Source: an uncultured Photobacterium sp. (GTDB lineage Bacteria > Pseudomonadota > Gammaproteobacteria > Enterobacterales > Vibrionaceae). Taken from it: a stretch of DNA of 32,732 bases. Location: assembly GCA_947039005.1 (NCBI GenBank), contig CAMQXY010000029.1, positions 1 to 32,732 on the forward strand. The letters run 5' to 3'. The first letter of the stretch is position 1. Each line of letters opens with the position of its first letter. Below the pieces are notes generated by a model. That model was not told where the DNA came from and made no database searches. It worked only from the letters and a program-made list of their open reading frames with translations. Below are positions 23,234-24,703 of the stretch, in pieces. Position numbers and translations under genes: made by a program.

Positions 23234-23838
23234 TGTTCATTCCTGAAGCTTTTTCTCATTATTAAGCATAGATGTTAGAAATATATTTGCATTCTTATTA
23301 TGAGGAAAAATAAGATAAATAAGCAACACAGTTACATTTTGAGGGGAGATACCAAAAAAAAACAGTATGTGATAAATAAACGTTACTGAATGATATAACG
23401 ATAAAATAAATTATTTTTCTTATTTAGCAATGTGTTAGCTATTATTTAATGTTGTTTTTCATCGAAAGATGATATTTGTCACAAAAAAAAGACAATAGAG
23501 TGGTTGTCAAAATGGAAAAACATATTTATATTGACTGTGTTGATATAGATCGTTAGGTGAAATTCGTTTCAAAAATCAGAAAGTCTTAGTTTATATTCTT
23601 TCCTAAATTACCCCCGCGAAGCCTTATCACAGTTATATTTATCGATAACGGAACTTGTTTATAGAAGTTGTTGTCGTTAAGTAGATATATAAAAATTGTT
23701 GTTTATAATAATTCAATGAATATGTCATCATAATGTCATATGATCTTGGTTAAGTAGAACACGAATAGTCGAGTAAGAACGGTATTAATAAATAGTGATA
23801 TCAACCTTGCTCATTGGGAAATAAATGAGAGGTTTAAA
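23234..23838. other. 600-base gap upstream of the candidate small RNA
   Basis: No coding gene is supported. A CRP-like half palindrome GATGATATTTGTCACA lies at 23468-23483: the right arm TCACA is perfect, the left matches TGTGA at 3 of 5. A consensus TATAAT occurs at 23704-23709 but without a good -35 box. A run CCCCC at 23611-23615 echoes the CCCCCC at 24063-24068. These may belong to the promoter or leader of the RNA that carries the 22-codon frame. Confidence 0.35.
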
Positions 23839-24122
23839 ATGAAAACACGTAGTCGTAGACAGTGGTTTTACCATAAAAATCAAACTACTAAAGTAGTTAA
23901 AGCTTAAGTTTTAGAAAAACATTTCTTTGTAGGTGATAAAGAAATGAATACACATAATTATCCTCTAATTATGTGTATGTTGAAAATTGTTCATTACAAA
24001 TATCAACAGCCAAAGTGGCCAGGAATCTATTTTCACGTTGTAATATTTCTGGCTAACTTATACCCCCCTTTATCAAAATTAAATTATTGTTTATTAAAAA
24101 CACAACTGTTTGTTTTTGTTAA
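23820..24122 (+). ncRNA. Candidate structured regulatory RNA containing a small ORF
   Basis: Successive local hairpins are visible. They are AACTAC-TAAA-GTAGTT (23883-23898), CATTTCTTT-N9-AAAGAAATG (23920-23946) and ATACACATAATTA-TCCTC-TAATTATGTGTAT (23948-23978, perfect 13 bp), then a longer GCCAGGAAT/ATTTCTGGC stem (about 24018-24054, one mismatch). An unpaired TACCCCCCTTTAT (24061-24073) follows. The loop TCCTC and the C run are complementary to ribosome binding sites, the usual seed type of such RNAs. An AT-rich hairpin (AAACA/TGTTT) followed by GTTTTTG near 24100-24121 may end the transcript. The 5' end is not defined; my start only covers the frame's binding site. Direction is inferred from the small frame. 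Confidence 0.45.
23839..23907 (+). CDS. 22-residue basic small protein within a candidate dual-function RNA
   Basis: The frame reads MKTRSRRQWFYHKNQTTKVV then KA and TAA, with an excellent ribosome binding site (GAGAGG at 23827-23832, six bases before ATG). Eight of 22 residues are K, R or H and there is no acidic residue, so the net charge is strongly positive; the RSRRQWFYH block is the striking part. It is followed at once by a series of hairpins and a C-rich stretch. In Vibrio cholerae the dual-function RNA VcdRP encodes the small protein VcdP (29 residues), which acts on citrate synthase, and pairs with sugar-transport mRNAs through C-rich motifs. This locus has the same design, but I cannot compare the actual sequences, so homology is a guess. 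Confidence 0.55.
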   Translation: MKTRSRRQWFYHKNQTTKVVKA

Positions 24123-24142
24123 TAATGTTTAGTGACTATTTT

Positions 24143-24703
24143 TTATCGATATATAAATCCCTTGATAATAGCATCATCTGGAATAGTAGTGAGTGGCATA
24201 TTACCAATATAAATATTACCTTTTACAACCAGTTTATTAGGTAAAGTACGAATTTTGCTATTTTGCAGTAATAAATCACCTTTAATATATAAATTATCAG
24301 GCAGTTTTTTTAGTTGAGTATGAGCTACGCTGAGATCGCCAATAACGCGTAAACCAAAGTTAAGTTCTTTAATTTTAGAGTAAGCTAGATTGATATAACC
24401 ATCGACGTTAAGGGCTAACGGTAAATATTCAATATCACTGTAAGCTAAATTAAGGTTACCTTTAACTGTGACGCTTTGGGGTAACATGCTAATACGGCTA
24501 TTTTCAAGATTAAGATCACCATCAATGATGAGTGGATCAGGTAACCGAATATCACCACTGTCTCTTAATGAAATATTACCGTAGCTATCTTGATAATTAA
24601 GTAAATGAGTCGGGGTTAATGCCAAAGCTGGTTGGACGATAGAGAATAAGCTGATTATGCATACTAGCCGTTTTAAAATAGACATATTGATAGACATCGT
24701 CAC
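24143..24703 (-). CDS. Secreted 20-residue leucine-rich repeat (beta-solenoid) protein
   Basis: A 186-residue exported protein. After the signal peptide (core LKRLVCIISLFSIVQPALA) come about six and a half repeats of 20 residues with the pattern LP-x-x-L-x-V-x-G-x-L-x-L-x-x-S-x-I-x. Examples are LPDPLIIDGDLNLENSRIS, LPQSVTVKGNLNLAYSDIE and LPDNLYIKGDLLLQNSKIR. This pattern occurs in many bacterial and phage proteins of unknown role and predicts a right-handed solenoid, probably a binding surface. The start is uncertain: GTG 24703, Met3 or Met7 are all possible, and Met7 (MSILKRL) gives the most normal signal peptide. It is convergent with the candidate RNA. Confidence 0.8.
   Translation of the reverse strand: MTMSINMSILKRLVCIISLFSIVQPALALTPTHLLNYQDSYGNISLRDSGDIRLPDPLIIDGDLNLENSRISMLPQSVTVKGNLNLAYSDIEYLPLALNVDGYINLAYSKIKELNFGLRVIGDLSVAHTQLKKLPDNLYIKGDLLLQNSKIRTLPNKLVVKGNIYIGNMPLTTIPDDAIIKGFIYR

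Follow-up and report, generated by a model that had tools for sequence, protein, structure and literature searches.

The closest described system to the locus reported here is VcdRP of Vibrio cholerae. In the accessible parts of the published reports, VcdRP is described as a 306-nt transcript (PMC8672173), and vcdRP, together with a CRP site, is placed between VC2278 and pepD (VC2279) (PMC8672173, PMC3136459, PMC6050953). A seed of four cytosines lies 35–40 nt after the ORF and is followed by an intrinsic terminator, and the protein binds citrate synthase and activates it (PMC8672173). SgrS/SgrT, in which a small ORF precedes the base-pairing sequence according to the available part of the same paper (PMC8672173), is similar to our locus in plan only.

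Small genes tied to phosphate control provide a second comparison. The yoaI gene of E. coli is a small-protein gene, the product of which is a membrane protein. In the accessible parts of the respective papers, yoaI is supported as a member of the Pho regulon (PMC10294691), DUF1127/YjiS small proteins bind PhoR (PMC12501420), EsrL is a reported PhoB-bound sRNA that was not reproduced (PMC10294691), and srvg23535 of Vibrio alginolyticus is 107 nt long with a predicted phoB site (PMC6186989). By description, yoaI is likewise a small-protein gene under PhoB, but the window protein, unlike it, is short and basic. The DUF1127/YjiS proteins are likewise very small and tied to phosphate control, but no Pfam DUF1127 match was obtained with 17 members of our family. 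For EsrL and srvg23535, both small RNA genes, a PhoB site has been proposed, and no small protein is named in the descriptions that were compared. The open-access literature searched, as far as its text was available, contained small RNAs linked to PhoB, none of them described as dual-function, and the peptide motifs matched no paper in it. An RNA-seq study of P. profundum, available in part, gave 460 putative small RNAs and 298 new protein-coding genes (PMC3505737; data deposited as GSE38259), and its tables may have a transcript of this locus on record.

The locus lies in a stretch of 32,732 nt of Photobacterium DNA, which was analysed whole and is referred to as the window. The original prediction had placed a candidate dual-function RNA at 23820–24122 and had likened it to VcdRP. 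The two are alike in layout: the window gene would also produce a transcript of about 300 nt, in which a small ORF follows a leader of about 80–100 nt, and it too has hairpins, a C-rich unpaired stretch and a nutrient-linked promoter. They differ in that the peptide here is unrelated, the locus is another one, a PhoB-type box stands instead of CRP, and no matching seed or terminator is found.

The profiles of VcdP and the window peptide did not align (hhalign probability 0.12%, a value that is weak alone for profiles this short). CRP-like matches with up to two mismatches numbered 17 in the window against 17.9 expected, the nearest being at 23468–23483. The C run began 155 nt after the stop codon, and a simple scan of the plus strand found no intrinsic (U-tract) terminator. 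The window contained no pepD, which was on contig C10.

In the Vibrio-like genomes (this and similar labels were assigned in our analysis), the pepD family was present in 60 of the 61 searched, and 30 loci were examined. A VcdP of 28–30 aa was found upstream of pepD in 23 of the 30 by a strict pattern, and in two more (L085 and L094) on a looser reading. One Vibrio-type VcdP of 29 aa, MNKGLSSVMFWNQHSVYTGNFAYPRSFGY, has the published length. A CRP-like site was seen in part of these loci, the seed read CACCCC, and most of those listed carried a terminator of the form CCGCCACTC..GAGTGGCG-T7. The VcdP profile also gave matches with E of 0.1 or less in 51 of the 52 Photobacterium genomes. In 50 of them E was 1.1e-4 or better; the remaining match was weak and contained a stop. 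The vcdRP of the window's own genome was located at G000:C10:6831-6899 (L153), beside pepD at C10:7466. It encodes a diverged VcdP, MKIFSSVTHFWNNRAVYTSNFHYPSPYRY, followed by an ACCCCC seed and CCGCCACT. With both genes in one genome, the likeness in layout is misleading, and the proposed homology to VcdRP did not hold. The link to carbon uptake and the TCA cycle that would have come with it was not supported by our results; judging from the promoter, phosphate starvation is the relevant condition.

The promoter and coding elements of the window gene are as follows.

23723–23739, plus strand: PhoB-type box TGTCAT-CATAA-TGTCAT, the sole match in the window at no more than one mismatch
23750–23755, plus strand: putative −10 hexamer TTAAGT, 10 nt after the box, matching TATAAT at three of six letters
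23827–23832, plus strand: Shine-Dalgarno sequence GAGAGG, of which AGAGGT is invariant in 39 aligned Photobacterium leaders
23839–23907, plus strand: ORF of the small basic protein MKTRSRRQWFYHKNQTTKVVKA, 22 aa plus stop

The 22-codon, well-initiated ORF was as predicted. The sequence directly 5' of it is ATGAGAGGT, in which GAGAGG is separated from the ATG by 6 nt, and the translated MKTRSRRQWFYHKNQTTKVVKA contains no D or E. Proteins of this type are short, strongly basic, aromatic and arginine-rich, 22–25 aa long in Photobacterium and up to 28 aa in relatives, with the core R-R-x-W-[FY]-Y. Because of this composition, a nucleic acid or an acidic protein is the likely partner. Nothing convincing was found for the peptide in Pfam, NCBIfam, PHROGs or PDB. 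The single weak Pfam match among the 17 members was DUF4337 (E 0.2, one member), and PHROGs gave two weak matches (E 0.053 and 0.24, one member each). One annotated record was matched by the search; no feature was annotated beneath the match, and the gene table there was incomplete. In Rfam, two matches below the gathering threshold covered the small-ORF region, both at chance level. The sole match in the window at the gathering threshold, distant from this region, was the cspA thermoregulator RNA (RF01766, 32109–32556, plus strand, 112 bits).

Of 52 Photobacterium genomes, 50 carried the peptide, including all 48 of good quality. The 34 named loci comprised 32 labelled Photobacterium, one Enterovibrio and one gammaproteobacterial MAG (L077), which has no start codon and was left out of all counts. 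The Photobacterium set used below consists of 39 loci, including the 32 named ones. From a family-wide search of 329 genomes, 20 further places were examined. Seventeen of them, in other genera of the family, were small ORFs of 25–28 aa, all starting with ATG and most with a clear ribosome site. The other three (L128–L130, in the Vibrio-like genus g12) had no start codon and were rejected as small ORFs. Since, in addition, the best of the listed matches in g12 were partial, the family was counted as not found in that genus.

Beyond the family, 394 genomes of the order were searched. With the profile, homologues of the form MSKxVRRQWFF were found in nine of 11 genomes of one genus in another family; two of the nine were already members of the search profile. 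Among 14 further matches listed, a start codon and a ribosome site were both present only in two of genus g14. L147, L150 and L139 have an ATG and no ribosome site. L147 and L150, from other families, are weak profile matches with an RR-x-W-x-Y-H core (MKLNRRHWCYHLAQARRTKPVA in L147), and may be relatives or chance. In genus g2 (14 genomes), the four matches listed contained no fitting ORF and were rejected.

Selection on the frame was estimated by pN/pS, given as uncorrected proportions. Within four Photobacterium groups, the ratios were 0.138 (10 loci), 0.175 (7), 0.169 (5) and 0.308 (17). Over all 39 Photobacterium loci the ratio was 0.367, and over all 57 loci, a set in which one Enterovibrio genome is counted twice (L076 = L113), it was 0.451. 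At codons 2–13 the amino acids were unchanged in the two closest groups, the closest being a clade of 10 loci. Four different codons are used for the invariant R6 and three for R7. These results indicate that the small frame is under purifying selection and that the protein is real.

The box was examined in the same loci. Its count in the window alone was not significant, as shuffled windows averaged 0.55 matches, and the case for PhoB therefore rests on position, conservation and calibration in the window's own genome. Boxes were scored out of 12 as tandem TGTCAY repeats with an 11-bp period. A score of at least 10 was reached at a constant place in 35 of the 39 Photobacterium loci, compared with 64 of 10198 random windows drawn from these loci. 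The box was perfect in 23 of the 39 and in none of the 10198. The remaining four scored only 9. In the whole genome, the exact pattern occurred six times (control, two). One copy is the small-ORF locus, another is upstream of pstC-pstA-pstB-phoU, with polyphosphate kinase nearby on the other strand, and another is upstream of an alkaline phosphatase gene. By-eye inspection spotted no phosphate gene beside the remaining three. The E. coli PhoB sites given for phoA, pstS, phoE and csrA in the available part of the list are of the same form, and the list includes a TGTAAT variant, as in the weaker Photobacterium loci (PMC10294691).

The hexamer was chosen as the best one within 8–13 nt of the box, with ties broken towards 10–11. 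The gap from box to hexamer was 9–11 nt in all 39 loci, partly by this rule, and TATAGT was found exactly 11 nt after the box in 13 of the 39. The two sequence features of Pho-regulon promoters, tandem TGTCAY repeats at an 11-bp period and a fixed short spacing to the −10, are thus both present. We infer that transcription starts near 23762 in the window and that the promoter in Photobacterium is activated by PhoB under phosphate starvation. The new finding is that, in 35 of the 39 Photobacterium loci, a −10-like hexamer is preceded by a tandem box of PhoB type. The predicted extent stood as far as its elements are concerned, but the unit begins further upstream than 23820, with the box at 23723–23739 and, from around 23762, a leader that is conserved.

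Between about 23762 and the ATG, the leader was conserved in 37 of the 39 loci; its hairpin was lost in L068 and L075. Two folds were found for it.

23771–23812, plus strand: leader hairpin, GAGTAAG (23771–23777) with CTTGCTC (23806–23812), around GGTATTA (23781–23787) with TGATATC (23796–23802)
23803–23834, plus strand: alternative stem, AACCT (23803–23807) with AGGTT (23830–23834) and CTCAT (23810–23814) with ATGAG (23825–23829)

In the alternative stem, AACCT and CTCAT pair with ATGAGAGGTT, which would hide the ribosome site. This closed fold is the minimum-energy fold of the leader in the window. Over 37 sequences, the closed minus open energy ranged from −1.8 to 4.2 kcal/mol (mean 1.3). 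Twenty-four preferred the open fold and 10 the closed one, and three were equal within 0.3. The closed fold was within 4 kcal/mol of the open one in 35 of the 37 and within 2 in 21, counts that carry no shuffle baseline. The leader alone gave z = −2.1 (7 of 200 shuffles as good). The hairpin has 11 consensus pairs with 96.1% of cells paired in 30 distinct rows. Its covariation was not significant (two cells with two-sided changes, reached by 65 of 500 shuffles; score reached by 101 of 500), and was uninformative because variation was too low. That both folds are kept suggests that they form a regulatory switch of translation. A search with the leader model outside Photobacterium gave no convincing copy (best E 0.037).

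The explanation that we consider probable is a PhoB-activated small-protein transcript with a two-fold leader, conserved in Photobacterium. When phosphate is scarce, the PhoB-activated promoter would start a short transcript encoding the conserved arginine-rich protein. With the leader hairpin open, the ribosome site would be free; in the closed fold, ACCU and CUCAU would pair with AUGAGAGGU and the ribosome site would be hidden. Having two alternative folds, the leader could thus allow output to be set after transcription. The 3' part would be a row of hairpins ending in hairpin D (described below), with both transcript ends as predicted here, and the basic protein would act in the phosphate response by binding an acidic or nucleic-acid partner. 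Of these parts, the selection on the protein and the conservation of the PhoB-type box, the leader and the 3' hairpins are established by comparison of the loci. A conserved protein of 22–28 residues thereby gains a likely condition of expression, and its leader becomes a candidate for a translational switch.

The region after the ORF contains the following elements.

23920–23946, plus strand: hairpin B, CATTTCTTT/AAAGAAATG
23948–23978, plus strand: hairpin C, ATACACATAATTA/TCCTC (23961–23965)/TAATTATGTGTAT, a perfect 13-bp stem
24017–24054, plus strand: hairpin D, GGCCAGGAAT/ATTTCTGGCT, better conserved than any other element of the 3' part
24063–24068, plus strand: CCCCCC run, predicted unpaired, which represents here the C/U-rich tail that follows hairpin D

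The 306-nt stretch 23757–24062 was far more structured than its shuffles (z = −4.9, 0 of 100 as good). The stem with its TCCTC loop and the further hairpins were present as originally described, and 23908–23980 gave z = −6.3 (0 of 200). The region of the last hairpin gave z = −2.4 (5 of 200), and the tail, 24050–24125, was not special (z = −0.15, 86 of 200).

Conservation of the hairpins was uneven. In hairpin C, 6 of 13 pairs were changed on both sides and 84.5% of cells were paired over 17 loci of two clades; one pair failed in 15 of the 17. The hairpin thus shows compensatory changes between the two clades. Hairpin D, with GCCAG..CTGGC in 37 of the 39 loci, had 99.4% of cells paired and nearly no variation. 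Hairpin B had 81% of cells paired and 2 of 9 pairs changed on both sides in 17 sequences, but several of its pairs failed in one clade. For the three together, 28 cells had two-sided changes, where shuffles gave 12 (none of 500 as high), in a control that leaves relatedness in, most changes separating the two clades. Pairs with two-sided changes numbered 8, compared with 5.9 in shuffles (at least as many in 40 of 500), and there were 26 further pair types, compared with 24.3 (at least as many in 34 of 500). A pairing of the AGGUGAU loop of hairpin B with the leader was considered but discarded, since within the closest clade the loop is variable and the leader is not.

These hairpins bear on the tentative possibility, somewhat on the doubtful side, that the transcript is a full dual-function RNA, in which the C/U-rich loop of hairpin C and the tail pair with the ribosome sites of target mRNAs, as in VcdR or SgrS. 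Of 37 loci, 22 had a C/U-rich tract after hairpin D, compared with 422 of 3700 control windows taken upstream (11%), the loci being related and hence not independent; the purine counterpart was found in none of the 37. The TCCTC loop was preserved in nine of the 10 closest loci, with its stem changing on both sides between clades. A loop pyrimidine run with at least three C occurred in 10 of 10 loci of the phosphoreum clade and in 6 of 7 of the angustum clade, in a count made without control; the latter clade has no C/U-rich tail. The strong folding of the 306-nt stretch is in keeping with such a function. On the other side, the tract was absent in 15 of the 37, and by the same rule most loci outside the two closest clades had no such loop. 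The motif shifts in place and letters between clades, and anti-Shine-Dalgarno letters are easily found by chance. The exact CCCCCC run, although present and predicted unpaired as first noted, was not conserved: it followed hairpin D in 4 of the 39 loci, including the distant L062, L065 and L066, and in the closest clade of 10 loci only the window has it. The C/U-rich stretch is a candidate base-pairing segment, enriched but shifting, and a base-pairing function for it is possible. An additional pairing with mRNAs would make the transcript a phosphate-linked dual-function RNA. With or without that function, the fallback of the original prediction, a new small-protein RNA, was borne out by purifying selection, the compensatory changes in hairpin C and the recurring C/U-rich tracts.

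A further sequence was found beyond the hairpins. The palindrome GCAANCGNTTGC, scanned with a slightly relaxed pattern, occurred 148–276 nt after the stop codon in 25 of the 39 loci (for example, at 198 nt in L045, 196 in L048 and 204 in L053), against once in 290,936 background bases. From the PurR consensus, we take this palindrome to be a PurR operator. Two relatives had 23 and 16 such sites per genome (controls, 3 and 7). Ten sites were inspected, and seven of the adjacent proteins were the products of fhs, folD, purC, nupC, purT, pyrC and mnmA. At the small-ORF loci the box was mostly between convergent genes, where it might serve as a roadblock ending the RNA or as a promoter for an antisense RNA. 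The window copy fails the pattern and is placed by its position only:

24093–24104, strand not assigned: possible decayed remnant of a PurR-type box

Taken together, these elements might make up a new family of dual-function RNA, started by PhoB, with a bistable leader deciding protein output, C/U-rich loops and tail silencing mRNAs by masking their ribosome sites, and the PurR operator of the 25 loci as a roadblock that ends or limits the transcript. We consider this combination unlikely; if true, one short gene would link the supplies of phosphate and purines.

The OmpR family in general typically uses direct repeats of about 11 bp, and the tandem box could belong to another of its regulators. 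The behavior of the box in other genera would fit such a regulator. In 26 distinct loci outside Photobacterium, with 320 nt searched, three boxes scored 10 of 12 and none higher, and the background rate predicts about one or two. PhoB control therefore does not extend to the protein family as a whole. Against another regulator stand the same exact box upstream of the pst-phoU operon and of alkaline phosphatase in the same genome, and the like form of the E. coli PhoB sites in the available part of PMC10294691. This makes a regulator other than PhoB quite improbable in Photobacterium.

It was also considered that the ORF is a leader peptide, the translation of which controls a downstream gene. 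The structured RNA around a short ORF would suit this, as would the arrangement in other genera of the family, where the next ORF of at least 90 aa was on the same strand in 14 of 18 loci, 154–387 nt on, so that the small ORF there could share its transcript. In Photobacterium, however, the next ORF of at least 90 aa was on the opposite strand in 35 of the 39 loci; three others had a same-strand ORF more than 530 nt away and one was at a contig end. Moreover, it is the amino acids that are under selection, and the ORF has no repeats of one codon type. We regard a leader peptide as very unlikely, and the PhoB-activated small-protein transcript remains the preferred explanation.

Several observations were made on the neighboring genes. 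In the window, they include GNAT, Polyketide_cyc2-like (below the Pfam cut-off) and GreA/GreB-type genes. At 24143–24703 on the minus strand is a convergent protein with repeated 'GDLNL..S.I..LP' units and no match in Pfam or NCBIfam; a convergent ORF of similar size is next in many Photobacterium loci. In L076 and L113–L127, the same-strand next ORF often starts with MNVLS, and the arrangement may be an operon. The other-family homologues L156–L164 have a hairpin, TTGTCAGTAAAT..ATTTACTGACAA, about 50–130 nt after the ORF and without a U-tract, and their next gene is convergent and ACBP-like by reading.

That the window gene is the vcdRP of this species was rejected as virtually impossible, since the general layout (small ORF first, then hairpins and a C run) is all that speaks for it, against an unrelated peptide whose profile does not align, another locus, chance-level CRP matches and a separate true copy upstream of pepD in the same genome. 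Among the Vibrio-like loci, L099 was seen to carry two VcdP-type ORFs in tandem (positions 397 and 646) upstream of pepD, a possible duplication of vcdRP.
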